A stretch of DNA of 64,000 bases from Luteibacter yeojuensis (lineage in GTDB: Bacteria; Pseudomonadota; Gammaproteobacteria; Xanthomonadales; Rhodanobacteraceae), in the NCBI RefSeq assembly GCF_011742875.1, contig NZ_JAAQTL010000002.1, positions 496,001-560,000 of the forward strand, given 5' to 3'. Made by a program: the position numbers and the translations under genes. Below, piece by piece: positions 7,294 to 32,501 of this stretch. The notes beneath the pieces are model-generated. The model was not told where the DNA came from, did not search any database, and saw only the letters and a program-made list of their open reading frames with translations. Each line of letters opens with the position of its first letter. Position 1 is the first letter of the stretch.

Positions 7294-9926
<2,633 letters not shown>

Positions 9927-10059
9927 GGCAAGCCCTTGGGTTCGCGCCCCGCCGGACATCCGGCGGCGGTCGATCCGCCGATGGTCGCGGGGGGCGCGGG
10001 CGTCGCGGAAGCGCCGGAAGTCATGGGCGCAGGTTCTTGCGCAGGGGCCCAGCGACTTC

Positions 10060-11307
10060 CTACCTGTCTCGCCAGACCCTCCACCACGCCCTCTTCTCAA
10101 GCTTCCGCAACGCTTTCAAATGCCCTCTCGCGGCCGCCTTGCGGAACCACGCCCGGGCGATCGAGAGGTTGCGCGGTACGCCTTCGCCACGCTCGTGGCA
10201 CACACCCAGCTCGAACTGCGCATCGGCGTGGCCCGCGCCGGCGGCAAGCCTGAGGAGGCGAACCACCTCCAGCACGTTGCGCGGCTGGCCGCGCCCTTCG
10301 TCGAGCATCCTCGCCAGGGCGTACTGGGCGGGCGCATGCCCCCGCTCGGCGGCCAGCGCCAGCCAGCGCACCGCCTCGCGGTCGTTGCGGGTCACGCCGT
10401 CGCCGGAGGCCAGGCGCTGGCCGAGCAGGAACTGCCCCGCGACGTCCTGCGGGCCGAGGCGTGCGTCGCGTTCGAGGGCCGGGGCTTCCGGACCCGGCAT
10501 CGCCGCGAGTTCGGCCAGGTGCCGGCGCGCCTCGCTGTCGCCCTGCTCCGCGGCCAGGCCGAACCAGTAACGCGCCTGTTCGCGATCTTCCGGCAAGGCG
10601 CTCGCTTCCAGGTGCAGCTTGCCCAACGCGAACTGCGCGCTGGCGTTACCCAACTCGGCGGCACGCCGGTAATGGTGTTCGCCCGCCACGGTGTCGCGGG
10701 GCACGCCGATGCCGTCGCAGTACATATGGGCCAGGCTGCACAGCGCGTCGGCGTAGCCGGCCGCGTCGGGCTGGCCCTGCTCGACGGCGCGGGCATAGTA
10801 GGTGAAGGCGAGTTCCGCGTCGCGCGGCACGCCGCGCCCGAAGTAATGCGACACGCCAAGGTTCACGCACGCCTGCACATGCCCCTGGTCGGCCGCGAGC
10901 GTCCACCAGCGCAGGGCTTCCTGCCGGTCCGTCGGGGCGCCGTGGCCGCGGGCATGGAGGGTGCCCAGCGCGCATTGGGCGTCCGCCGATCCCGCCTCGG
11001 CCGCACGCCGGTACCATCCGGCGGCCTCGAAGGGGTCGCGAGGCACGCCCAGCCCTTCCGCATGGTGGGCCGCGAGGCGGCACTGGCTTTCGAGATGGCC
11101 CTGCTCCGCCGCGCGGCGGAACCACTGCGCGGCGCGGAAGCGGTCCTGTGCCACGTGCTCGCCTTCGGCGTACATGTGTGCCACTTCGAACTGCGCGCGC
11201 ACGTCCCCGAGCTGCGCCGCCTTCTCCAGGCGACCGAATTTCTGCAAGGCGTCCATCTCCGCGACGAACCGATGGTCGCCGAGCGCGCCGGTCCTCCCCT
11301 GCGACAT
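10060..11307 (-). CDS. SEL1-repeat protein
   Basis: 415 residues made almost entirely of SEL1-like TPR units of about 36 residues, for example AQFEVAHMYAEGEHVAQD, AQCALGTLHARGHGAPTD and AQYALARMLDEGRGQPRN. At least nine units can be counted. There is no signal peptide or catalytic motif, so it is probably a cytoplasmic scaffold for protein-protein contacts. ATG 11307 has a GGGGA ribosome binding site seven bases upstream and is preferred over the in-frame ATG at 11322. The partner is unknown. Confidence 0.85.
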   Translation of the reverse strand: MSQGRTGALGDHRFVAEMDALQKFGRLEKAAQLGDVRAQFEVAHMYAEGEHVAQDRFRAAQWFRRAAEQGHLESQCRLAAHHAEGLGVPRDPFEAAGWYRRAAEAGSADAQCALGTLHARGHGAPTDRQEALRWWTLAADQGHVQACVNLGVSHYFGRGVPRDAELAFTYYARAVEQGQPDAAGYADALCSLAHMYCDGIGVPRDTVAGEHHYRRAAELGNASAQFALGKLHLEASALPEDREQARYWFGLAAEQGDSEARRHLAELAAMPGPEAPALERDARLGPQDVAGQFLLGQRLASGDGVTRNDREAVRWLALAAERGHAPAQYALARMLDEGRGQPRNVLEVVRLLRLAAGAGHADAQFELGVCHERGEGVPRNLSIARAWFRKAAARGHLKALRKLEKRAWWRVWRDR

Positions 11308-11495
11308 ACCGTTCCCCTGCAAACGCCTGTCGATCGTGGCGCCGGATCATAGGCGGAAGCCGGGCGGGAAGATATCGGCATTTTGGAGGGGTGCCCAAAG
11401 GCCTTGCCTTGGGCTATGGGGCCGGCGGGAGTAAAAACGATGCCTGGCGCGCACGAAGGGAGGATGATGCGGCGATCCCCATCGGAACGCCCTCC

Positions 11496-12497
11496 ATGAA
11501 AGCCATCGTTTATACCCAGCACGGCCTGTCGATCGACGATCCCGCCTCCCTGGTTGAAACAGACCTGCCGAAGCCCGTGCCGGGCCCCCGCGACCTGCTC
11601 GTGGCCGTGAAGGCCGTCTCGGTGAATCCGGTGGATACCAAGCAGCGGAACAACGTGCCGGTGACCGAGCCGCGCGTGATCGGTTTCGATGCCGTGGGCA
11701 CCGTGACGGCGGTGGGCGATGGCGTGACCCTGTTCAAGGAAGGCGACGAGGTGTTCTACGCCGGCTCGCTCGTGCGTCCCGGCAGCAACGCGGAATTCCA
11801 GCGGGTGGACGAGCGCATCGTGGGCCGCAAGCCGCGAACGCTCGACGCCGCCCACGCCGCCGCGCTGCCGCTCACGGCCCTTACCGCCTGGGAAATGCTG
11901 TTCGACCGGCTGAAGGTCGCCGAGGGCGGCGGCGAGACGATCCTCATCATCGGTGCCGGCGGCGGCGTCGGGTCCATCCTCGTCCAGCTGGCCCGCAAGC
12001 TGACCGGGCTCACCGTGATCGGAACGGCTTCGCGCAAGGAAACCGTGGACTGGGTGACCGGCCTCGGCGCGCACCACGTCATCGACCACGGCAAGCCGCT
12101 CGGCCCGCAACTGGAGGCGTTGGGCATCAAGGAAGTGGACCACGCGGTGAGCCTGACCCACACCGAAGAGTATTTCGACCAGCTCGTCGCGATCGTGAAG
12201 CCGCAGGGCCAGTTCGGCCTCATCGACGACCCCAAGGCACTCGACGCGACCAAGCTGAAGCGCAAGGCCATCTCGCTGCATTGGGAATCGATGTTCACCC
12301 GCTCCACCTACCAGACGCCGGACATGGCGAGGCAGCACGACATCCTCAACCGCGTGGCGGACCTCGTCGACGCCGGTACGCTGCGCACGACCTTCGGCGA
12401 GCACTTCGGCAGGATCACGGCCGAGAACCTGCGGCGGGCGCATAAGCTGATCGAGAGCCACCAGGCCCGCGGCAAGATCGTGCTCGAGGGTTTCTGA
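11496..12497 (+). CDS. Zinc-type alcohol dehydrogenase-like / quinone oxidoreductase-like protein (MDR superfamily)
   Basis: 333 residues. An N-terminal GroES-like domain with SVNPVDTKQR and GFDAVGTVTAVGDGV is followed by a Rossmann domain with the NADPH-binding motif IIGAGGGVGSILVQLA. The structural and catalytic zinc cysteines of classical alcohol dehydrogenases are absent, so it is a zinc-independent MDR reductase acting on quinones or enones. It is monocistronic. ATG 11496 gives the canonical MKAIVYTQ start. The exact substrate is unknown. Confidence 0.85.
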   Translation: MKAIVYTQHGLSIDDPASLVETDLPKPVPGPRDLLVAVKAVSVNPVDTKQRNNVPVTEPRVIGFDAVGTVTAVGDGVTLFKEGDEVFYAGSLVRPGSNAEFQRVDERIVGRKPRTLDAAHAAALPLTALTAWEMLFDRLKVAEGGGETILIIGAGGGVGSILVQLARKLTGLTVIGTASRKETVDWVTGLGAHHVIDHGKPLGPQLEALGIKEVDHAVSLTHTEEYFDQLVAIVKPQGQFGLIDDPKALDATKLKRKAISLHWESMFTRSTYQTPDMARQHDILNRVADLVDAGTLRTTFGEHFGRITAENLRRAHKLIESHQARGKIVLEGF

Positions 12498-12513
12498 GTA
12501 CCCGTCTCGCCGC

Positions 12514-12740
12514 TCAGTCCAGCATGCCCCGGATGCGAGCCAGCAGGACATCGATCTCGAACGGCTTCGCGATCATGTCCGTCCCCTGCCCCAGGAACCG
12601 GGACCGCTCCATCGCGTTCTCGGCGTAGCCGGTCATGAACAGCACCGGCAACGCCGGGCGCCATGCGCGTGCCGCTTCCGCCAGTTCGCGGCCGTCCATG
12701 CCAGGCATGCCGATATCGGTGAGCAGGAGGTCGATGACAG
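12514..12740 (-). pseudogene. Fragment of a response-regulator receiver domain
   Basis: The last ~72 codons encode the C-terminal two-thirds of a CheY-like domain: phosphorylatable Asp in LLLTDIGMPGMDG, the threonine strand VLFMTGYAE and the lysine in IAKPF. The N-terminal acidic pair and first helix are missing, and the upstream frame carries no related sequence or start. It is probably the tail of a lost hybrid histidine kinase. The complete single-domain receiver lies next to it on the other strand. Confidence 0.7.
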
Positions 12741-12873
12741 TGTGCCGATCCGCGAAAGCCGTTCGAGGAACGTGCAGGTCTCGCTCCCCCGGGCGCGTGA
12801 TTTCAGTTGACGAAGTCTTCACGCAAGACACGGTATCTGCGTCGCCCACGACCCACCCTAAGAGCGGATTTGC

Positions 12874-13242
12874 ATGGCCACCGAACGCCCCCTCGTTGTC
12901 CTCCTGGTCGAGGACGATGACGCCATCCGCGAAATCTCCGCGATGATCCTTGAGGACGCCGGTCACGAGGTCCACGCCATGCCGAACGGCGATGCCGCGG
13001 AGCGGTGGTTGGATGCGCGGACGCCCGCCTTGTTCCCCGACGTGCTGTTCACCGACGTGCGCATGCCTGGCAGGGTGAAGGGCCAGGACCTGGCCCTGCG
13101 CCACCACGTCGACATGCATGTGCTGGTGACCTCCGGCGAGATGCGCGACCAGCACCCGTGGCTGGTCGAAGGCATGGGCTATCTCCCCAAACCCTACGAC
13201 CGCAAGACGTTGCTCGCGGCCGTCGAGGGTGTCGCTGCCTGA
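12874..13242 (+). CDS. Single-domain response regulator (CheY-like)
   Basis: 122 residues comprising only a receiver domain. The acidic pocket is VEDDD near residue 18, the phospho-acceptor Asp61 lies in LFTDVRMPG, and the conserved Lys is in LPKPYD. There is no output domain, so it would act by phosphorelay or protein contact. A receiver fragment of a probable hybrid kinase lies just upstream on the opposite strand, which suggests that a larger signalling locus has decayed here. Confidence 0.85.
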   Translation: MATERPLVVLLVEDDDAIREISAMILEDAGHEVHAMPNGDAAERWLDARTPALFPDVLFTDVRMPGRVKGQDLALRHHVDMHVLVTSGEMRDQHPWLVEGMGYLPKPYDRKTLLAAVEGVAA

Positions 13243-13246
13243 GGCT

Positions 13247-13642
13247 TCAGGCCTTGTCGACCACCCGGCAGATCCTGCCGCCCGAGAACGCGAATTCGGA
13301 ACTGCCGCGCATCTCCACGACCGTGCCCGCGCGCGGTCCGTCCGGGATGTCCTCGGCGATCTCGCCGTGGAAGTCGATCGTGGCGGCGACGGTATCCCCC
13401 TCTTCCACCAGCGCCACGACCGACTGGTGCCGCGACGCGAACATCGCGGCGCCGACGCGCGCCAGCTTCTCCAGGTCCGCCTTGCCGTCGGTCGCCACGC
13501 TGACCTCGTCGCCCGAGTGGTGCTCGAAGCGCACGTCGTCGGACAGGGTGGCGAGCATGCCTTCGATATCGAAGCGGTTATACGCATCGATATAGGCCTC
13601 GATGAGTGCCTGGCGGGCGGGATCGATGGCGGGGTTCGTCAT
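13247..13642 (-). CDS. SnoaL-like / NTF2-fold protein
   Basis: 131 residues with the small cone-shaped NTF2-fold pattern: ALIEAYIDAYNRFDIEGMLATLSDDVRFEHH at the N-terminus, then alternating strands ending in FSGGRICRVVDKA. Such proteins are often uncharacterised hydrolases, isomerases or binding proteins. No catalytic residues can be assigned. Convergent with the response regulator, four bases apart. Start at 13642 by family pattern. Confidence 0.75.
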   Translation of the reverse strand: MTNPAIDPARQALIEAYIDAYNRFDIEGMLATLSDDVRFEHHSGDEVSVATDGKADLEKLARVGAAMFASRHQSVVALVEEGDTVAATIDFHGEIAEDIPDGPRAGTVVEMRGSSEFAFSGGRICRVVDKA

Positions 13643-13750
13643 GGCGCCATCATACATAGCCGTGGCGATGGCCGGATAGAGCAGGAACGTGCCTTGCCGC
13701 GACCTCCCCGGCCCCGTATGGTGCGGCTTCCGTCCCAACCGAGCATCCCG

Positions 13751-15124
13751 ATGTCGCATTCGCAGGAGCACTCCCCCGAACATCTCAGGCGTAGCCTGTC
13801 GAACCGCCATCTGCAGCTGATCGCCATCGGCGGAGCCATCGGAACCGGGCTGTTCATGGGATCGGGCAAGACCATCAGCCTGGCCGGGCCGTCCATCCTG
13901 CTGGTGTACCTGATCATCGGCGTGATGCTGTTCTTCGTGATGCGGGCGATGGGCGAGCTGCTGCTCTCCAACCTCAACTACAAGTCGTTCATCGACTTCT
14001 CCACCGATCTCCTCGGTCCCTGGGCGGGCTTCTTCTGCGGCTGGACTTACTGGTTCTGCTGGATCATCACCGCCATCGCGGACGTGATCGCCATCGCCTC
14101 CTACGCGCAGTTCTGGTTTCCCGGTCTCGCGCCGTGGATACCCGCGGTGCTCTGCGTGCTCCTGCTGCTGACCTTGAACCTCACGACGGTCCGCCTTTTC
14201 GGCGAACTCGAGTTCTGGTTCGCCCTCATCAAGATCGTCGCCATCTGCGCGCTCATCGTCACCGGCTTCGGCATGGTGGCCTGGGCCTTCCAGTCGCCGG
14301 ACGGACACGTGGCCTCGCTCGCGAACCTGTGGAACGACGGCGGCCTGTTCCCCATGGGCATCGGCGGATTCTTCGCCGGCTTCCAGATCGCCGTGTTCGC
14401 CTTCGTCGGCATCGAGCTGGTCGGCACCACGGCGGCCGAAACGGCGGACCCCGAACGCAACCTGCCCAAGGCGATCAACTCGATCCCCGTGCGCATCATC
14501 CTGTTCTACGTGCTGTCGCTCGTGGTGATCATGTCGGTGACGCCGTGGCGCCAGGTGCTGCCGGGCAAGAGCCCGTTCGTGGAACTGTTCGTACTCGCAG
14601 GCATTCCGGCGGCCGCCAGCCTGATCAACTTCGTGGTGCTCACCTCGGCCACGTCGTCGGCCAACAGCGGCATCTTCTCCACCAGCCGCATGCTGTTCGG
14701 ACTGGCCGAGGAAGACCATGCGCCGAAGGCCTTTCACCACCTGTCGAAGGCGGCGGTACCCTCGCGCGGCCTGCTCTTCTCCTGCATCTGCCTGCTGGGC
14801 GGCGCGATGCTGGTATACGTGATCCCGAACCTCGTCACCGCATTCACGCTGGTGACGACGCTGGCGGCGATCCTCTTCATGTTCGTCTGGTCGCTGATCC
14901 TGGTGGCGTATATGGCCTACCGGAAGAACCGTCCCGAGCTGCACGCGGTGTCGAGCTACAAGATGCCCGGCGGGGTGTTCATGTGCTGGGCCTGCCTTGC
15001 GTTCTTCGCCTTCGTGCTGGTGTTGCTGGCACTGGAGAGCGATACGCGGCAGGCGTTGATCGCGAGTCCGGTGTGGTTCGCGATCCTTGGCATCGGATAC
15101 GCGTTGCGCCGGAAGAAGGCCTGA
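13751..15124 (+). CDS. Amino-acid permease, CycA/AAT type
   Basis: 457 residues with 12 predicted membrane segments. The start (HLRRSLSNRHLQLIAIGGAIGTGLFMGSGKT) and the central FVGIELVGTTAAETADPERNLPKAIN are hallmarks of the amino acid-polyamine-organocation superfamily, AAT family. The length and opening resemble the D-serine/D-alanine/glycine transporter CycA, but the substrate is not proven. It is a single gene followed by a strong terminator at 15211. Confidence 0.85.
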   Translation: MSHSQEHSPEHLRRSLSNRHLQLIAIGGAIGTGLFMGSGKTISLAGPSILLVYLIIGVMLFFVMRAMGELLLSNLNYKSFIDFSTDLLGPWAGFFCGWTYWFCWIITAIADVIAIASYAQFWFPGLAPWIPAVLCVLLLLTLNLTTVRLFGELEFWFALIKIVAICALIVTGFGMVAWAFQSPDGHVASLANLWNDGGLFPMGIGGFFAGFQIAVFAFVGIELVGTTAAETADPERNLPKAINSIPVRIILFYVLSLVVIMSVTPWRQVLPGKSPFVELFVLAGIPAAASLINFVVLTSATSSANSGIFSTSRMLFGLAEEDHAPKAFHHLSKAAVPSRGLLFSCICLLGGAMLVYVIPNLVTAFTLVTTLAAILFMFVWSLILVAYMAYRKNRPELHAVSSYKMPGGVFMCWACLAFFAFVLVLLALESDTRQALIASPVWFAILGIGYALRRKKA

Positions 15125-23131: not shown

Positions 23132-23362
23132 GGGCCACGACATAGATCGGGGCGCCTGCATGGTCGAGGCGAACAGCCTCGGGGATGGTGATGGCAAAGC
23201 CGTATGCCGTGCCGCCCGTGCCGCACATGGCCGTGTCGGTGGCACTGCTGGGCTTGTTCGCCAGAACGGACGAGCTCATGGGCGTAGCCGTTCCTGCGGG
23301 GCCGTCGATGAATACTTCCACTGCCGTCCATCGACCTGCAACCGCTCGAGACTCATCAGGTT
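23132..23362 (-). pseudogene. Fragment of an RHS protein gene (two joined pieces)
   Basis: 23132-23322 is nearly identical to 28229-28418 of the large RHS gene, and 23321-23362 to 29337-29378. The ~920 bases between them in the intact gene are deleted and the join is out of frame. The piece stops where the IS3-type element begins. It is the downstream remnant of a second RHS gene copy. Confidence 0.85.
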
Positions 23363-24099
23363 TTGCTCCGAGCGTCGGCTAACGACAAGAACCAATGCTC
23401 GTTCAGACACTCCTGTCGGAGACGGCCGTTGAAGCTCTCCACCACGGCGTTGTCGGTGGGCGTGCCGCGGCGTGAGAAGTCTAGCTCCACTCCGTTTTCG
23501 TATGCCCATCGATCCATCACCTTTCCTGCGAACTCACTGCCGTTGTCCACTTTGATGGCCGCCGGCTTGCCGCGTTGAGCGACCAGGCGCGTCATCGCTT
23601 CGGCCACGTGTTCGCCACGCAGCGATTGATCCACCACAATGTCCAGGCACTCGTGAGTGAAATGGTCGCTCACCGTCAGTAACCGAAAACGACGACCATC
23701 GAAGAGCGCGTCGCTGACGAAGTCCATACCCCAAAGTGTGTTGGCCGCCGTTGCCAACCTGATCGGCTGCCGACGACGGGCACTGCGGCTGCGACGCGGC
23801 CGGCAAAGCCGCAATGAAAGGCCTTCTAGCTTATAAAGACGGTGCACGCGCTTGTGATTGTCCCGCCAGCCCTCACGCCGCAGCATGATAAAGACTCGCT
23901 CACATCCGTAGTGAATTCGCGTCTGCGTGATCTCCCGCATGCGCTGCCGGATCGCACTGTTGTCGCGCGACTTGGCTTGATACGAATACGATGATCGTGA
24001 CATCGACATGATCCGTAAGGCGCGTCGCTCGCTTGCGCCGAAGCGCTCCTGCAGCTGGCCTACCCAGGCTCGCCTTTGGGCAGGCCTTAGAGTTTTTTT
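23363..24099 (-). pseudogene. IS407-type transposase OrfB, 3' truncated
   Basis: Integrase-core transposase with DDE motifs LWGMDFVSDAL, KVDNGSEFAGK and ESFNGRLRQECLNEHWFLSL. The usual last ~50 residues are missing: after LADAR the frame runs into RHS remnant sequence and stops at 23356. It is expressed from orfA by -1 frameshifting at an A7 run (complement of 24093-24099). Confidence 0.85.
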
Positions 24100-24353
24100 G
24101 TGACCACCTCTTGGAGCATGGCCTTGTCCAGGCTCAGATCGGCCACCAGTTGTTTGAGCTTGCGATTCTCGTCTTCCAGCAAGCGCAATCGCTTCAGCTC
24201 CGAAGGCCCCAGACCGCCGTATTTTTTCCGCCAGACGTAGAACGTCGCCTCGGAGATACCCATCTTGCGGCAAATCTCCCCGACCGCCGTGCCCAACTCG
24301 GCCTGCTTGAGCGCGTAGGCCATCTGCTCCTCGGTAAAACGCGACCTCTTCAT
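24087..24353 (-). CDS. IS407-type transposase OrfA
   Basis: 88 residues: helix-turn-helix (RFTEEQMAYALKQAELGTA then GISEATFYVWRKKYGG) followed by a leucine-zipper-like coil (LKRLRLLEDENRKLKQLV). It ends in KKL at the A7 slippery run used to fuse with OrfB. The other IS lies only 24 bases upstream of its ATG, separating it from the original promoter. Confidence 0.88.
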   Translation of the reverse strand: MKRSRFTEEQMAYALKQAELGTAVGEICRKMGISEATFYVWRKKYGGLGPSELKRLRLLEDENRKLKQLVADLSLDKAMLQEVVTKKL

Positions 24354-24409
24354 GCGCTGACTCCTCGTTTGGTAACGTGACCTGCCCCCAGCAGCCGTAC
24401 CAGTGATCA

Positions 24410-25280
24410 CTATGAAAGTCCGGGGTTGAAGGTTACTGCGTTGACGTCCCGTTGTGCGCGGTGGTGGGCAGCGAATTGCGACGGTGGAATACGGCCACAG
24501 CTGCTATGGGGCCGAACCTCGTTGTAATCCCGACGCCAGCTTCCAATGACGTCACGCGCTTGGATCAGTGACGTGAACCAATGCTCGTTGAGACATTCGT
24601 CGCGGAACTTGCCGTTGAAGCTTTCGATGTAGCCGTTCTGCGTGGGGCAGCCCGGTTCGATCAGGAGGTGCTCGATGCCATGCTGCTGCGTCCAGGCGAT
24701 GAAAGCACGACTGGTGAATTCGGGCCCGTTGTCGGTGCGTACGGCGCGTGGATAGCCACGGAAACAGGCGGCCTGATCGAGAAAACGTACGACGTAGACA
24801 CCGCTGATGCCATGGTCCACCGCGATGTCTACGCTCTCGCGAGTGAAGTCATCGACCATGGTCAGGCATTTGATCCGGCGCCCGTTGGCCAGGGCATCGA
24901 AGACGAAATCCATGCTCCAGGTGTCGTTGGGCCGACACGAAGCCCGCAGCTTCTGGCGCTCGCCGACCGGGCGCTTCGCCTTGCGGCGACGGCGCACCGA
25001 CAGCTTGGCCTCCTGATATAGGCGATACACTTTCTTGTGGTTCACCGTCGGGAATTCCGGCTTCAACAGGTCGTGTAGGCGGCGCTAACCGAATCGGCGG
25101 CGTACCTACACCAACTCGACCAGCCACAGCGACAACGCCTGCGTGGCAGGCGTGGGCAGCGGTTCATGACGGAAAGCATCGCGGGACAGCCCCGCAAGGC
25201 GGCAAGCCCGGCGCTCGCTGATCGAGGTCAGCTTGCACATGCGTCGGATTGCCTCGCGCCCGCGTTGCGGGACTAGCGTT
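24410..25280 (-). pseudogene. IS3-type transposase OrfB with two in-frame stops
   Basis: The frame after orfA reads RRMCKLTSISERRACRLAGL, then meets two amber codons (after ...VELV and after VRRRFG) near 25089-25105. The rest (25066-24410) is an intact integrase core: TWSMDFVFDAL, RTDNGPEF, YIESFNGKFRDECLNEHWF. The internal ATG at 25066 could give a 218-residue product without the N-terminal part. Probably inactive. Confidence 0.82.
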
Positions 25281-25539
25281 TTACCCCGAACCCGACCTTC
25301 AGCGCCTCGATGTCCAAGTGCGCCTCCGCCAACAGACGCTTCAGCCGACTGTTCTCGGACTCCAGGTCCTTCAGCCGCCTGGCGTCCTCGGCCTCCATGC
25401 CGCCGTACTTGGCCCGCCAGGCGTAGAAGCTGGCGGGACTGAAACCGTTTTGCCGGGCCAGCTCCGAGACCGCCATGCCTGCGTCGGCCTGTTTGATGAA
25501 GCCGATGATCTGCTCGGTAGTGAAACGACTCTTCTTCAT
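25273..25539 (-). CDS. IS3-type transposase OrfA
   Basis: 88 residues, starting MKKSRFTTEQIIGFIKQADAG with the helix-turn-helix GFSPASFYAWRAKYGG and a coiled C-terminus. The first ~55 residues nearly match the OrfA at 43718, but the C-terminal part differs, and the slippery site here is GTAAAACG rather than an A7 run. Confidence 0.87.
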   Translation of the reverse strand: MKKSRFTTEQIIGFIKQADAGMAVSELARQNGFSPASFYAWRAKYGGMEAEDARRLKDLESENSRLKRLLAEAHLDIEALKVGFGVKR

Positions 25540-25629: not shown

Positions 25630-25716
25630 GACGGCGCTTCCTCGCGCCGTCTGCACCACGTTATCCGCACCGTCGTACTGCATGACGGTGTTACCAGTCT
25701 CAGGTTCGATCACCCG
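25630..25716 (-). pseudogene. Fragment of an RHS protein gene (upstream remnant)
   Basis: Closely matches 29581-29666 of the intact RHS gene (segment encoding TARGIAVSGDG-NVVQ region). It begins exactly where the IS407-like terminal repeat ends. With the piece at 23132 it shows that the IS elements sit inside a second, decayed RHS copy. Confidence 0.85.
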
Positions 25717-25718
25717 AC

Positions 25719-25892
25719 ATGAGTTGCGGAGCGCTTGTCTGGTCGGACTGTACGTTGCGTATCGCCCATAAGCTCGGCGTGACGCTGGCCGCGACGCCTC
25801 GCGACGAAACCAACGGGAGTTCGCTTTATTGCGATATTTTTCGACTGGATGGGACGTATGCGGAAGCTGGCCGCGTGCACAAGGCGGTGTAG
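25719..25892 (+). pseudogene. Duplicated 3' fragment of the gene at 40022
   Basis: 57 codons (MSCGALVWSDCTLRIAHKL...) nearly identical to the last third of the 169-residue protein at 40022, starting at an ATG that replaces the GTG of the original. The tail differs (GRVHKAV). It is fused directly to the RHS remnant and has no ribosome binding site, so a functional product is unlikely. Confidence 0.75.
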
Positions 25893-25937: not shown

Positions 25938-26189
25938 TCACCCAAAGAAGAGGAGCACAACTACCATTGCTGCGGAGTGAAATATCGCGAACGTGATCAT
26001 TCGCAGTATAAGAACACCATCATTCCTCCAGCACAATTTGAGAATCAATACTGTATTGAGCAGTAGCCAGGCGACATAAAAAATGTAATAGCTCAACCCG
26101 CCCGATCCGACCAACAAGGTAGCAAGGATCTTGCCCAAGACGAACATGGGCAAGATAAGAATGAAGAACAATATCTTGTCAAACAACAT
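25938..26189 (-). CDS. Small membrane protein, candidate immunity protein of the RHS operon
   Basis: 83 residues with three hydrophobic segments (ILFFILILPMFVLGKILATLL, YYIFYVAWLLLNTVLIL and the C-terminal AMVVVLLFFG). GC content is clearly below the surrounding core genes. It lies 19 bases downstream of the RHS tip gene on the same strand, the usual place for an immunity gene in polymorphic toxin loci. The immunity role is inferred from position and recent-acquisition signs only; the sequence is not a family I recognise. Confidence 0.55.
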   Translation of the reverse strand: MLFDKILFFILILPMFVLGKILATLLVGSGGLSYYIFYVAWLLLNTVLILKLCWRNDGVLILRMITFAIFHSAAMVVVLLFFG

Positions 26190-26208
26190 GCGTACCTTTG
26201 TTTACCCA

Positions 26209-27099
26209 TCAAGGTTTAGCTGGAGGATTCCTCAGCGAACTTTGAGGAGCTTCGTCGGCGCAATGTCCGTTGTCGTCACACCCACCTAGATCTTCGATGT
26301 GAGTAACTACTTCCACGCCAAAGCCGACTGGAGTCACCTTAAGTACGCCACTCTTTGCGATCTTAGCTGTTTTGAACGTTAGCATCTTTACAATTCTATT
26401 CGATAGAAAGTCATCTATCCGCCGAACTACAGGCTTGAAAATGCTCGGTCTGAAGATCCGCCGCCCACCGGGCGGGCGGAAGATCGGTGGGGGAATCCCT
26501 ACGGAACCGGTGTTGGGTGTGACCTTGACTTCGTCAAGCTGCACGATGCTCTTCGACGGAGGCGGAGGGGGCGATGTCGTTGGAGCTTGATCGTCCTTAG
26601 GCAACGGTAGAGGCGGCTCAGTTGCGGGACACTCCTGACCGTCGACACTTATCGGACAGAGCCCCGTGGGATCCCAATTGACGACGGGGTTGTCACTTGC
26701 ATAGGCGTAGTCGTCGACGTTGAGAAGGTTCGCCAACTCCGAACTAAGAGGGTCCACGCTCATGAATCGCCCGATATCAGGATCGTAGTACCGCGCTTGC
26801 ATGTAGACCAAGCCAGAATCGAGATCATAAATATGCCCCGTATAGCCGGGACCCGGCTCCGCGACTCCAAGCACCTGCCCGCCATACGGCCGGTAGTCCG
26901 CTGTCGACAGCACATTACCCGCTTCATCGGTTGTCGCCAGCACCGTCCCCTGCGGGCTTGTGTAGTAATAAGTCACCGTCTCCGCAGCAACAGACGAATT
27001 GCCGCATAACGCCGCCAGCGTAATCGCGATGAAACAAAGGAAGCGACCAGCAACCCCACGAACCGACCTGCAAAGCTCAATCATCGCCATCGTCCTCAT
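26209..27099 (-). CDS. Secreted RHS core-domain protein with variable C-terminus (split RHS, second half)
   Basis: 296 residues. A hydrophobic segment (GRFLCFIAITLAALCGNSSVAA, residues ~19-38) predicts its own signal peptide. Residues ~41-145 carry the hyperconserved end of RHS proteins: YYYTSPQGTVLATTDEAGNV, YRPYGG, GYTGHIYD, and RYYDPDIGRFMSVDPL. After WDPTGL a short, proline-rich and lower-GC tail (~150 residues) follows, as in polymorphic toxin tips, with no recognised toxin motif. Its ATG overlaps the TGA of the large RHS gene (ATGA), so both halves are co-translated. In ordinary RHS proteins this block is continuous with the YD repeats. Confidence 0.75.
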   Translation of the reverse strand: MRTMAMIELCRSVRGVAGRFLCFIAITLAALCGNSSVAAETVTYYYTSPQGTVLATTDEAGNVLSTADYRPYGGQVLGVAEPGPGYTGHIYDLDSGLVYMQARYYDPDIGRFMSVDPLSSELANLLNVDDYAYASDNPVVNWDPTGLCPISVDGQECPATEPPLPLPKDDQAPTTSPPPPPSKSIVQLDEVKVTPNTGSVGIPPPIFRPPGGRRIFRPSIFKPVVRRIDDFLSNRIVKMLTFKTAKIAKSGVLKVTPVGFGVEVVTHIEDLGGCDDNGHCADEAPQSSLRNPPAKP

Positions 27100-30000
27100 G
27101 TCGCGCTCACCCAGGCAGAGCAGCCATACGCGTTACACGCACGGACCTGGTAGCCATACAGAATGATTTCCCCGATGGGTCCTGTTTCGACGAGTTGTTT
27201 CAGCGTCGGCATGTTCACGTGCCATGTCGTGGTCGTGTTGTTGCGAAGCACCTCGTGGTATGTCGCACCTGGCGTGGCATTCCATGTGATGGTCAGCGTC
27301 TCATGGCTGCCGCTGAAGGCATCGACGGCGTGGACATTGGTCGGTGCCGGCGGAACGTTGGTCACCGTCACTGTCACAACTGCGCTGTTCGGCCCGCATC
27401 CGCCGGCATTGCACGCGTTGACGTAATAGTTGTACGAGCCATCGGGGCGGTTCGAAGTAGGCCAACTGCCGGCGGCCGTGTTCTGGACCAACCCCCATCC
27501 ACCGCCGTTGTATCGCTCATAGAGGGCATACCGTGTCGCCCCCGCGACGCCACTCCAGCTCACTGTCCACGCTCCGTTGTGCACGGCAGCCGGGGCACTG
27601 ATGGAGGGAGTGCCGCTGGGTGGGATGGTCACCACGACCCCACCGCTCGTCTTGTATGGCCCGCACACACCGCTCCCGTTACAACCGGTCACGCGGTACG
27701 TATACGTACCCGTGACCCCGACAGTCAGGGCCTTGGACGTCGCAGCTCCCGAGTAGGCTAAGGTCCAGGCTCCGCCATTGATGCTCTGTTCGAGGTGATA
27801 GGTAGCGGCGTAAGTCGCCGCCGACCACGACACCGTGATCGGTCCGTTGCTCGTGGCTGGCACGGAGATGGTCGCCGGTGCCGGCGGAATATGCGCCACC
27901 GTGACCGTGTTCGAGACTTTTTCGATACTGCAGTTCACCGTGACGCAGGCGCGAACCCGGAACGTCCAGTTTCCATCGGCCGGGCCGCCGAACACGGTCG
28001 ACAGGTTCGTACCGGTATACAGACTGGACCAGGCGCCACCGTTGAACTGCTTTTCCACCTGATACGCGGTGGTCCGCGCCGAGGCTGCCCAGCTTACGGT
28101 GATGGACGCGAGGTCCCCCGCCACGACGGCGGTCGCACTGGCAGGGGTATCGGGCGCCGATGCCGAGGCGGGCACGAACGGCACACCCGAATTTGCGAGC
28201 TGCTGGTCGGGGCCGCCGATATTGGAATGGGCCACGACATAGATCGGGGCGCCTGCATGGTCGAGGCGAACAGCCTCGGGGATGGTGATGGCAAAGCCGT
28301 ATGCCGTGCCGCCCGTGCCGCACATGGCAGTGTCGGTGGCACTGCTGGGCTTGTTCGCCAGAACGGGCGAGCCCATGGGCGTACCCGTTCCTGCGGGGCC
28401 GTCGATGAATACTTCCACCGGGACAGGGTCCGTGGAGCCCTGCGAGCAAGCCCAGCCGTTCAGTGTTGCGATCACGCCGCTCTCGGTGACCCCACCAACG
28501 AAGCCGATAAGGGTCTCGTGCACGTTCTCCGCGGCGGCAACGAGCTTCTTGCCGAGGTAGATATAGTCTTTGGCTCGCTGGGTGGACGGGTTGTACTCCC
28601 ACATCAACTGACCCGAGGCGCTGTACGCGGAGTACTTGGGAAGCACGGCGCCCGCCGGCGTCTGCTTCACGCGGCGACCGTTCGCGTCATACGCATAGTC
28701 CGCGATGCCGGCGATGCCACTGAGCCGATCCGCCAGGTCGAAGGCCAGCACCTGCCCTGCCCTGCTTGTTACGTTGCCGCGCACGTCATAGGCGTACGAG
28801 GAAGTCACACCGTCAGTCGTCGTGATGGAGTCCAGGCGATTCGACGCGCCATAAGTGTAAGTGCGTCCCGTCGTCACTCCGCCATTGAGGGTATCGATGC
28901 CCGTGATGTTGTTAAGCACATCGTAGTGGTAGGTATCTTTGCCCCACAGCGGCACGGATTCCGCCGTGACAAGTCGGTTGAGCGCGTCATAGGTAAAGGT
29001 CTTGCTCCGCTGCCCGCCGCCCAAGTGGTCCTCGATGTGGGTGATGTTGTCCGTCCGGTCGTACGTCAGTGTCTGATCGATGACCGTGGCTGCCGCTGTT
29101 CCATAGGTGAAATCTTGCAGTGTCATCCGGTCATTTTCCCGTGCAAAATAGGCCGCACCGCTACCGAACGCGAACGACTCCAGGTTTCCGTCAGGGAAAT
29201 AGCTGACCGCCGTGGCGTATGTGCCTGCCTGCGTAGCACGCCCCAGGGCATCGGGCGTGTAACCCACGATCTTGCCATCGGGATACGTGATCGCGGACAG
29301 CGCCCCCTTCGCATCGTAATCGTAGGCGATGTCCCACTGCCGTCCATCGACCTGCAACCGCTCGAGACTCATCAGGTTGACGTTGTTACGCGCGTACGAC
29401 CAGATGGTGTCCACACCGGCTTGAGCCGTCGCCGGATTGCCGAGGCCGTCATAAGTCAGGGTCACGGAGGGCGAACCATCCGGATAGGCCACTGAAGTCA
29501 GCCGGTTCATCGCATCGAAACTGCGTACCACCGTCGATCCGGCGGGCATGTCCGTGGCAGACAGGCATCCGTCGCCGCTGACGGCGATGCCTCGCGCCGT
29601 CTGCACCACGTTATCCGCACCGTCGTACTGCATGACGGTGTTACCGGTCTCGGGTTCGATCACCCGGCAGGCACGGTGGAAGGCGTCATACTTGTAAAGC
29701 TTCTCGCCGCGCGGGTCCGCCCCCATCTGATGGATAGCCAGAACATCGCCAAAAATCGTTCGGTCGATGACCTGGTCCACACCTTCCGGCGCCTGCACTC
29801 GCAAAGGCTGCTCGTAGGAGGGCGCGTCGAAGACCTGGAATGTAGTGGTGATTTCATTCCCACGCGGATCGGTGAACTTCCGGCGCGCACCACTGAGATA
29901 GGCCGTACCGGTCGTCAGGACCACATCGTCACCGGCGTCTCGTGTCGAGCTGGTTTCCCTGCCCAGCGCATCGAAGATATGCCTGACACCCTTCTGAGTC

Positions 30001-32501
30001 GGATCGTAAGCGGCTGAGCCGGCAATCGGATACGATGCGAAGGTCTGGTTGCCGCGCCAGTCGTAGTTCGCCAACGTGGTGATCGTCAAAGCGCCGTCCG
30101 AGGCACGACGCTGTTCGGATGAGATAGGGTGGAGCAGGGCATCGAATCGCTGTATGTCCGCGCGATCGTGATGAGTGACGGTGCGCCGCCAGTGGCTGCC
30201 GGCGATACCCGGCTCGCTCCCCACGAATTCATACGTGAAGATCTTGGGAGCCCAGGTCTTGCCGTTCGCCTCGGTCTGGTAGTCGACCTGGGTAAGACGA
30301 CCGATGCCGTCGTAGTGATAACCCGTTGTCACGCCGCGCTGGTCGGTTGCCGAGACGATCTGGCCGAGGTCGTCGACGACAGCGGTCTGGGTATGTGTAT
30401 CCGGGTAGGTCACCAGCTGCGGAATGCCGCGCCGGTAGTTCGACAGGCTGGTGGTGTGCGCATTGCCATCTGTGAACGAGGCCAGGTCGCCACCGTTCCA
30501 GCCGTAGGTCATCACCGTGCGGCCGAAGCTCTTTCGCTCGGTCGGCCGCGCCAGCGCGTCAAAGATCGTCTCCGAAACGGTCGTGGTCGCGGTGGGTTCG
30601 ATGACCTCAAGTTTCCTGGTCTGGCCAAGCACCCAATGCGCCAGGTCATCGTTATACGTCGTTCGCTCGGTGCGAGTGCTCTGGCCGGCCATACCGACCG
30701 TGCCGCGGTTGACGGTGAGAGGGCGCGCGAAGACATCGAAACTACCCGATGCTACTTGCCACTGGTAGGTATCGCCGTCTTGCAGGAGGGTCCGCTTCGA
30801 GACCGGTGAAAGCATCTCGGTCTGATCGTGGTTCATCAGGCCCTGCAGGTTGTCGCCAAGCCGGGATGGCCATGGGCCGGCGGTCGCAGCAGCATATTCG
30901 GTGATTTCCGAGCGAGTGGGATTCACGCCGCCGACGGGATAGGTGTCCTCCCGCTTCAGCAGTGTTTCAGTCGAGCCCCACTGATTGGAAAACGTATGCA
31001 CCACGCGGCTGCCATCGGGATCCGTTTCCTGTGTCCACACGGTGTTCGTGCAGCCACTCGTGCAATCGGTATTCCAGCTTGCATTGGCGGGCGAATACGT
31101 GAAGCTCCAGAGCTGGTCGACGCCCGCCCCCGTATAGTGTTTCTGCGAGATCGCAGACGACACATAGGCGTGTGGGATCTGGATGATGTTCACGCCGCGG
31201 TCGAGGATGCATCGCCTCGGTACGTTCGAACGACCACGCACGACGGAGGTCAGCGTGAACGTGCCGGTAAGCCCGGACGGGTGCGTCAGCGTCGCCACGT
31301 CCGAAACGGGGGTTCCGCCTGCGGTGTACACACATCCTTCGTAGTCGACCCGAAGCTTGTCCGGCTGGGCCGATTGGCCGGTGGCGAGCGCCTTCATGTT
31401 GGAGAACGACCACGAAGAGCTGTTCGGCAGCGTCACACTGGCGAGAACCGGCTCGTCGGCCGTGCCGCCATAGGTGTAGGTCCAGGTCCTGTCGCCCGTC
31501 GCCGCGTGCTGAGTCACCGTCGTGATGCGTTCACCCACCGGGAACAGGCCCGAGGAATGCTGCCACTGCGCATAGGTGAACGTGACACTGCGGCCATCGT
31601 CCGCCGTGATCGACGTCAGGCGGTTGTTTGCGTCATAGCTATAGCTGAGCCGCCTGCCGAAACGATCCTCGGCGCGGCTCGCCTGCAAGGTCACGACGCG
31701 CCGCTTCAGGGCGCCGCCGCCGGGATGCGCGAGCGTGGAGGTCGGGCGCCACGACAGTCGGTCCAGCCAGTAACGGGTGCCGTCCGGTGCGACGGCGACG
31801 AAGGTCTCGCCAACCCCTGCGGTGTTCTCGCAGCCGAGCGCCCAGTTCTGCCGCGTAACGGCGGTAAACGGCATGGCCGAGCCGTCCGCACGGGTCATCT
31901 GGGGCACATTGTTGTTACCGGGATCCCGCTGGAGGACATCCTGCGCACCGGCGCCCGGAATCTTCAGCTGGATACCATGCCACCACTGGTTCGGCGTCCA
32001 CATCACGCCGTCCTCGCCCGGTTTGGTCGGCACGTCGATGGTGCCCGCCCCGTAGAAGCGCGTGCAGCGTTGCGGCTCGTCAATGAAATACCAGAAGGAC
32101 TCGTCGTGACCATCTTCGTCCGTGAACCTGGTTTCGGCAGAGAGCGTCTCCAGCTGCGGAACCGTCATGTCCCAGTCGGTGAAGCCTTGGGCAGCCAGCT
32201 CGAACACATAGGCATTCGGACCGCCTACCGGTCGCGCATGGATCGTTCGCTCCACGATGATGGGCAGGCCATTGCCCTTAGCCTCGAGGTCCACCTGTCG
32301 GAACGAAAGAGACCCATCGTAGGTACTTATGGATTCGCCGAAGGCGTCAGGCCCCAGCGGCTGAATGTCTTCATTGACCCGAAGAAGCTTCTTCCATTCC
32401 GACTCGATCGACACCGACTGCGCGGTAACCGCCGTCGTCATCATCCCTAAAACACACGCGAAAACCGCATCGCGCGTACGCGACCGCCTGGAAGCACCCA
32501 T
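27096..32501 (-). CDS. Large secreted RHS/YD-repeat protein with C-terminal fibronectin type III-like repeats
   Basis: 1801 residues with an N-terminal signal peptide (cleavage near AVTAQS). Residues ~270-1320 contain many YD repeats, for example YDANNRLTSITADDGRSVTF, YDGLGNPATAQ, YDALNRLVTAE and YDANGRRVKQTPAG. After YLGKKLVAAAEN, where most RHS proteins enter the core domain, this protein instead has a cysteine-containing module (~1330-1435, GWACSQGSTDPVPVEVF) and four FN3-like repeats (~1450-1801, each with a VSW and YRVRAC-like strand). The core domain is encoded by the overlapping downstream gene. It is probably exported and cell-surface located. Part of the gene is duplicated at 23.1-25.7 kb. 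Confidence 0.85.
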   Translation of the reverse strand: MGASRRSRTRDAVFACVLGMMTTAVTAQSVSIESEWKKLLRVNEDIQPLGPDAFGESISTYDGSLSFRQVDLEAKGNGLPIIVERTIHARPVGGPNAYVFELAAQGFTDWDMTVPQLETLSAETRFTDEDGHDESFWYFIDEPQRCTRFYGAGTIDVPTKPGEDGVMWTPNQWWHGIQLKIPGAGAQDVLQRDPGNNNVPQMTRADGSAMPFTAVTRQNWALGCENTAGVGETFVAVAPDGTRYWLDRLSWRPTSTLAHPGGGALKRRVVTLQASRAEDRFGRRLSYSYDANNRLTSITADDGRSVTFTYAQWQHSSGLFPVGERITTVTQHAATGDRTWTYTYGGTADEPVLASVTLPNSSSWSFSNMKALATGQSAQPDKLRVDYEGCVYTAGGTPVSDVATLTHPSGLTGTFTLTSVVRGRSNVPRRCILDRGVNIIQIPHAYVSSAISQKHYTGAGVDQLWSFTYSPANASWNTDCTSGCTNTVWTQETDPDGSRVVHTFSNQWGSTETLLKREDTYPVGGVNPTRSEITEYAAATAGPWPSRLGDNLQGLMNHDQTEMLSPVSKRTLLQDGDTYQWQVASGSFDVFARPLTVNRGTVGMAGQSTRTERTTYNDDLAHWVLGQTRKLEVIEPTATTTVSETIFDALARPTERKSFGRTVMTYGWNGGDLASFTDGNAHTTSLSNYRRGIPQLVTYPDTHTQTAVVDDLGQIVSATDQRGVTTGYHYDGIGRLTQVDYQTEANGKTWAPKIFTYEFVGSEPGIAGSHWRRTVTHHDRADIQRFDALLHPISSEQRRASDGALTITTLANYDWRGNQTFASYPIAGSAAYDPTQKGVRHIFDALGRETSSTRDAGDDVVLTTGTAYLSGARRKFTDPRGNEITTTFQVFDAPSYEQPLRVQAPEGVDQVIDRTIFGDVLAIHQMGADPRGEKLYKYDAFHRACRVIEPETGNTVMQYDGADNVVQTARGIAVSGDGCLSATDMPAGSTVVRSFDAMNRLTSVAYPDGSPSVTLTYDGLGNPATAQAGVDTIWSYARNNVNLMSLERLQVDGRQWDIAYDYDAKGALSAITYPDGKIVGYTPDALGRATQAGTYATAVSYFPDGNLESFAFGSGAAYFARENDRMTLQDFTYGTAAATVIDQTLTYDRTDNITHIEDHLGGGQRSKTFTYDALNRLVTAESVPLWGKDTYHYDVLNNITGIDTLNGGVTTGRTYTYGASNRLDSITTTDGVTSSYAYDVRGNVTSRAGQVLAFDLADRLSGIAGIADYAYDANGRRVKQTPAGAVLPKYSAYSASGQLMWEYNPSTQRAKDYIYLGKKLVAAAENVHETLIGFVGGVTESGVIATLNGWACSQGSTDPVPVEVFIDGPAGTGTPMGSPVLANKPSSATDTAMCGTGGTAYGFAITIPEAVRLDHAGAPIYVVAHSNIGGPDQQLANSGVPFVPASASAPDTPASATAVVAGDLASITVSWAASARTTAYQVEKQFNGGAWSSLYTGTNLSTVFGGPADGNWTFRVRACVTVNCSIEKVSNTVTVAHIPPAPATISVPATSNGPITVSWSAATYAATYHLEQSINGGAWTLAYSGAATSKALTVGVTGTYTYRVTGCNGSGVCGPYKTSGGVVVTIPPSGTPSISAPAAVHNGAWTVSWSGVAGATRYALYERYNGGGWGLVQNTAAGSWPTSNRPDGSYNYYVNACNAGGCGPNSAVVTVTVTNVPPAPTNVHAVDAFSGSHETLTITWNATPGATYHEVLRNNTTTTWHVNMPTLKQLVETGPIGEIILYGYQVRACNAYGCSAWVSAT

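Follow-up and report, generated by a model that had tools for sequence, protein, structure and literature searches.

A two-gene RHS locus in Luteibacter yeojuensis with features of a putative two-piece exported polymorphic toxin

The locus

We describe an RHS locus of Luteibacter yeojuensis in which a YD-repeat shell and an RHS core with a variable tail are encoded by two separate, overlapping genes. It lies within a 64,000-nucleotide (nt) stretch of contig NZ_JAAQTL010000002.1 (positions 496,001 to 560,000, assembly GCF_011742875.1), here called the window; coordinates without a prefix are those of the window, and genes 1 to 3 and the shell fragments beside them are all on the minus strand.

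Gene 1 (27096..32501) encodes a YD-repeat shell protein of 1801 amino acids (aa), identified from its open reading frame (ORF), its matches to the repeat profiles PF05593 and TIGR01643, and its shell fold; it has no match to the RHS core profile. The product begins with a signal-like N-terminus (aa 1-28, 32418..32501; called by hydropathy, with its boundary set by inspection), followed by the YD shell (aa ~29-1329, 28515..32417). After the shell come a conserved domain, here termed GWACS (aa ~1330-1446, 28164..28514; bounds taken from the structure model), which has no Pfam match, and four FN3 domains with conserved Cys pairs (aa 1447-1801, 27099..28163). The TGA stop of gene 1 and the ATG start of gene 2 share an ATGA (27096..27099).

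Gene 2 (26209..27099) encodes 296 aa: a signal-like segment (aa 1-39, 26983..27099), so that both proteins begin with a hydrophobic stretch by hydropathy; an RHS core (aa 40-147, 26659..26982), matched by TIGR03696 at aa 69-147 with 68 bits against a cut-off of 32.5; and a variable tail (aa 148-296, 26212..26658) made of a Pro-rich linker and then a presumed toxin. In a 48-row alignment of cores D116 is invariant, and R111 and D143 are conserved at 90% or more. Gene 3 (25938..26189) encodes a hydrophobic membrane protein of 83 aa (hydropathy), presumed to be an immunity protein. An earlier note, made from the letters alone, had read this anatomy of YD shell, four FN3 domains, ATGA, signal-like start, core, tail and small membrane gene, and the sequence confirms it throughout.

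Loci and classification

Related loci were gathered as 40 regions around core-search matches, the second locus of the same genome among them, and as 34 named loci and 20 further regions, the latter picked partly as contrasting cases. The classified set is thus 94 loci and the window; since members were picked by similarity or contrast, the counts below are not a census. Core genes sharing their first 200 residues were collapsed, leaving 100 distinct core genes. A core gene was called split when it starts at most 450 nt behind an ORF with a YD or FN3 match, and signal-like when a 10-mer of hydropathy at least 1.8 lies within 40 residues ahead of the core. Genomes and loci are cited by G and L numbers where they must be told apart.

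Conservation of the split

The 100 distinct core genes comprise 44 that are split, 46 that are standalone and 10 that lie within YD chains. For 37 of the 44 split genes the upstream YD ORF is at least 850 aa long, and all but one of these (36/37) carry an FN3 match; the other seven split genes have upstream ORFs of 206-565 aa, of which three run off the contig. An ACN..GCS motif closes the upstream product in 39/44 split loci. The stop overlaps the next start in frame as XTGA in 19/44, where about nine would be expected from the 35 TGA stops by simple arithmetic. A signal-like stretch precedes the core in 43/44 split and 37/46 standalone genes. Among the standalone cores six lie near a contig edge and several genes are truncated; three (two in L110, one in L073) resemble pieces of longer YD chains, and the core of L055, about 1.2 kb past the FN3 match of its shell, was scored standalone while that shell entered the tree below.

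In the wider survey an RHS core is present in 121/149 genomes, and the GWACS/FN3 region is matched in 62/149, from 25 of 59 genera (E 0.001; some weakly); the GWACS profile covers about 30 aa of the shell end, and its matches in single chains are mostly to shell. Among the matches listed for single-contig genomes, cores stand to FN3 frames of at least 900 aa as 6:2 (G014), 4:1 (G042), 3:2 (G004), 3:1 (G018, with an FN3 frame of 917 aa), 3:3 (G002) and 1:1 (G010).

The L. yeojuensis genome (4.22 Mb, six contigs) holds seven RHS core domains and one intact FN3-tailed shell. Its second locus (C1:2862946-2864852; L036/L132) combines a shortened shell start (703-aa frame) with a core gene that has a signal-like start and a tail different from that of the window. 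Two other core domains lie in frames of 1558 aa (C1:1835489-1837772) and 1535 aa (C1:2357977-2359560), which look like single-chain RHS genes; behind each lies another core-bearing frame (502 and 336 aa, respectively).

Shell tree and other break points

A tree of 47 shells spanning the second half of the shell was built by a quick method and labelled by state, FN3-tailed and core-less or single chain. It contains a clade of 25 FN3-tailed core-less rows (two being the same protein) with no single chain inside. Judged from this tree, the FN3-tailed core-less state is old and stable within that clade. Over the whole tree the label needs five changes and is clustered, so low a number being reached in 4/500 shuffles. 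The Luteibacter single chains L110 and L112 nest among FN3-tailed shells, and a single origin of the split across all 47 shells is not supported by the tree. The earlier note held that relatives with only single-chain versions would mark a recent disruption; relatives instead include the 44 core genes directly behind a YD or FN3 ORF and the 25-row clade of FN3-tailed core-less shells.

Chains can also be broken elsewhere. At least 5 of the 10 YD chains (L111, L114, two in L115, L117) are the second half of a shell alone, and for L111, L117 and both L115 chains the first half is in a neighbouring gene. Within the order these breaks fall at about query position 575 in L115 (twice) and at about 900 in L111 and L117. 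At L115:1733-6888 and 9666-14784, L111:130-6912 and L117:4494-10963 the YD region is divided between two proteins with signal-like starts, and the second protein of L111 and L117 has the GWACS domain near its start, close to this different break point. In the single or second-half chains the YD repeats are separated from the core by 42-59 residues, with no FN3 match between.

One locus (L122:3235-9864) is in three pieces, frames of 655 aa, 1226 aa (YD/FN3) and 304 aa (core), whose starts are signal-like (peak hydropathy 2.30, 2.76 and 3.85, respectively). The 655-aa frame was not among the matches listed for the gene 1 query; it shows 32% identity over 634 aa to one of the first halves in L115 and 25% to gene 1 aa 14-597.

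Tail polymorphism

Tails of 48 members were scanned for known families, giving Tox-REase-7 in six, HNH in two, LHH in one and YwqJ-deaminase in one. In three genomes identity falls at the end of the core: six pairs in G079 share 76-92% in the signal and 79-89% in the core with 2-5% in the tail, G004 shares 100%, 81% and 15%, and the values for R. lindaniclasticus, where the contig end truncates one signal, are 67-100%, 80% and 1-14%. In G014, G005 and G018 the signals share 4-40% and the cores 31-76%, and the tails reach 47% in one pair. Constant signal and core with exchanged tails are therefore clear, at the sequence level, in three of the six genomes compared. Correlations with shell distance (Mantel, 35 of the 44 pairs, kinship not controlled) were 0.59 for the FN3 region, 0.49 for the core, 0.10 for the tail and -0.03 for the signal. 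With its YD shell, a core ahead of the tail, and polymorphic tails, the locus shares three features of RHS polymorphic toxins.

Core genes also occur in arrays. In L128 they share similar signals and cores and differ in their tails, two being preceded by shell FN3 remnants; L129 has a similar array.

Break site and comparison with known systems

In solved chains the match to gene 1 stops shortly ahead of the start of the match to gene 2. For 8h8a the two matches cover 647-1006 and 1065-1151; for 6h6g the first runs to 2041 and the second starts at 2064 (numbering schemes differ). The structure model of gene 1 covers aa 640-1801, is confident without gene 2 and was assigned the shell fold by structure comparison, among the families listed there.

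Single-chain Rhs/WapA toxins and Rhs effectors of the type VI secretion system (T6SS) share with the window the YD shell fold, a TIGR03696-type core and a variable tail; unlike the window they are one chain, and the T6SS forms need a T6SS. The TssK profile (PF05936), the only T6SS component searched, found nothing in the L. yeojuensis genome and matched E. coli among 14 control genomes, so that a T6SS Rhs effector is disfavoured. Bacterial teneurin-like proteins carry an FN-plug and an NHL propeller ahead of the YD shell and, unlike the window, combine the shell with the core and toxin in a single chain (9ifo; PMC13018210).

A precedent is the Tc toxin, for which the available parts of the source describe one RHS shell formed from two chains, TcB and TcC, and a TcC from a distant gene that can join the same TcB (PMC11067744). 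As in the window, the shell takes two polypeptides and the second ends in the core and a variable toxin; unlike the window, the break is inside the shell and the core stays with part of it (PMC11067744). The RHS2 chain (TcC type) of 5kis aligns from about aa 880 of gene 1, whereas the break in the window falls after aa 1329 and the first chain terminates with FN3 domains. TcA (PF18276) gave no match in the L. yeojuensis genome, nor in any control genome. The earlier note's statement that the core of RHS toxins is continuous with the shell is thus too strong as regards the number of chains, and holds for TcC in so far as its core remains joined to a shell part (PMC11067744, as available). Because a two-chain shell is known from Tc, and here the break lies elsewhere and the first chain is FN3-ended, we regard the locus as a new variant. 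In the open-licence literature, covered mostly as listings and openings of abstracts, we recognised no report of a standalone, secreted RHS core with an FN3-ended shell as its partner.

A bacteriocin of X. perforans, Bcn-A, may be a published example of a two-piece RHS system, a suggestive comparison drawn from its published description and a short ORF4 peptide rather than the full ORF4 sequence. The available parts of that account report that ORFA (1398 aa, YD), ORF2 and ORF4 are all required for killing, that loss of ORF3 reduces it and that ORF5 confers immunity; ORF4 has 290 aa, a signal peptide and some identity to WapA/RhsA, and activity was lost in an xpsD (type II secretion) mutant of X. 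euvesicatoria carrying the cluster (PMC7259588). Like the window, Bcn-A has a large YD protein, a separate WapA/RhsA-like protein with a signal peptide, and a separate immunity gene, as gene 3 is presumed to be; unlike it, ORF2 and ORF3 lie between ORFA and ORF4, and terminal FN3 repeats such as those of gene 1 are not reported for ORFA in the same parts (PMC7259588).

The published ORF4 membrane peptide (residues 148-198) was searched at E<=1 against 395 genomes of the Stenotrophomonas family, matching 113 of them, and three loci were examined. Its best match, at E 0.0086, a value to be expected by chance in 395 genomes, has 43% identity over 37 residues and spans residues 164-203 of a secreted RHS core protein of 300 aa, encoded directly behind a 1877-aa YD/FN3 frame and ahead of a 135-aa frame. 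The match is telling for its location, a secreted core, and for its position there, which corresponds to that in ORF4.

Interpretation

The reading we favour, with a probability of about 0.65, is a two-piece RHS polymorphic toxin that is exported by Sec, assembled outside the cytoplasm and probably released by type II secretion. Gene 1 would supply the shell, and gene 2 the core and toxin tail, their translation probably being coupled by the ATGA overlap. Each product would be exported by Sec; if both are, shell and core must meet past the membrane. Whether still in the periplasm or already outside, the core would seal the shell's open end and either enclose or process the tail; release of the complex would fall to the type II system, whose GspD has two matches over cut-off in the genome. 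The tail would then kill target cells while gene 3 protects the producer. Since core and toxin form a complete gene, toxins would be exchangeable as whole genes. That the two halves meet outside the cytoplasm, as the earlier note proposed, stands as the best reading and may have genetic support from Bcn-A.

Several results count against this reading. The hydropathy test is loose, as 3/10 YD-chain cores pass it too, with values of 1.88-1.91 where the 43 split cores start at 2.02. Contact between shell and core is inferred, gene 2 alone modelling poorly (predicted local distance difference test, pLDDT, 61.7), and the shell-core correlation may be one of kinship. Well-supported branches require at least three changes of the split label, and single chains occur in the same genus and the same genome. 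The window tail matches no known toxin family in the Pfam scan. For gene 3, one of eight other homologues (G079) has the tail adjacent, and around those in four loci (L137-L140) no tail match was found. As to Bcn-A, its authors, in the available parts, call ORFA devoid of a signal sequence, model its C-terminus as a barrel cap and find ORF2 needed as well (PMC7259588); a search of the order (398 genomes) with the ORF4 peptide yielded nothing at E<=0.001, and the peptide's next two matches in the family search (both E 0.0092) have no RHS core in frames of at least 120 aa.

Other explanations fare less well. A frameshift, assembly error or recent pseudogene would fit the overlap of genes 1 and 2 in different frames and the insertion sequence (IS)-type genes and rhs debris nearby. 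The same order and ending, however, recur in dozens of loci of several genera, and gene 2 opens with a signal-like segment rather than carrying on the shell sequence; by this comparison the split is neither a frameshift nor a recent break, and we rule such an origin out with very little doubt. A stage of ordinary Rhs C-terminal displacement, in which the cores are spare cassettes that work only after recombination into a single chain and the FN3-ended shell leads nowhere, would account for standalone core genes and FN3-plus-core fragments, for the near-identical shell debris beside the locus, and for the two single chains nested among FN3-tailed shells. It is nevertheless unlikely: core genes keep their signal-like segment (43/44 split, 37/46 standalone). 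Fusion would bury that segment and about 500 aa of GWACS and FN3 sequence where the shell meets the core, a stretch of 42-59 residues, with no FN3 match, in the single chains examined; and 25 FN3-tailed core-less shells form a clade.

We rate slightly lower still the possibility that gene 1 is a teneurin-shaped surface adhesin and gene 2 an independent secreted toxin with a relic core, the two being neighbours only. FN3 domains are common in adhesins, aa 640-1801 of gene 1 model confidently without gene 2, and standalone cores are frequent. The core residues, on the other hand, are near-invariant, and core distances track the shell (kinship not controlled); if Bcn-A is the same kind of locus, the reported loss of its killing on deletion of either ORFA or ORF4 (PMC7259588) also speaks against mere neighbours.

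Beyond the two-piece toxin we tentatively consider a wider scheme, which we hold to be possible rather than probable: a modular RHS bacteriocin, assembled after export from the cytoplasm, in which one Sec-exported FN3-tailed shell is loaded in trans by any of several core-toxins exported on their own, the FN3 and GWACS domains dock at the break, and the shells of some lineages come in two or three exported pieces. Bcn-A, whose authors took ORFA as the toxin (PMC7259588, available parts), would be its first working member, so far unrecognised.

If the two-piece reading is right, a toxin would be captured in a cage outside the cytoplasm rather than made inside it, and one cage could take different poisons. 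There would be a reason why these genomes hold standalone core-toxin genes that have signal-like segments of their own, older bacteriocin genetics would gain a molecular reading, and cage assembly and loading could be tested with two simple proteins.

Gene 3 and neighbouring sequences

Matches to gene 3 occur in 9/149 genomes, that of L. yeojuensis included. In G079 a match to the tail (46% over 97 residues) is followed, 22 nt on, by one to gene 3 (37%), the order seen in the window. Immunity genes often occur alone.

Downstream of gene 3 lie three fragments, absent from the earlier note, that resemble gene 1 at 94-100% identity and in its orientation, with IS-type transposase genes interspersed. 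The displaced fragment at 25630..25719 is 94.4% identical to 29580-29669; those at 23132..23362 are 97.9% identical to 28229-28418 and 100% identical to 29334-29378. They are consistent with a decayed second shell copy, as cassette displacement might leave. Amid this rhs debris, 23356-25539 holds transposase genes that carry rve domains and, on inspection, look IS3-like.

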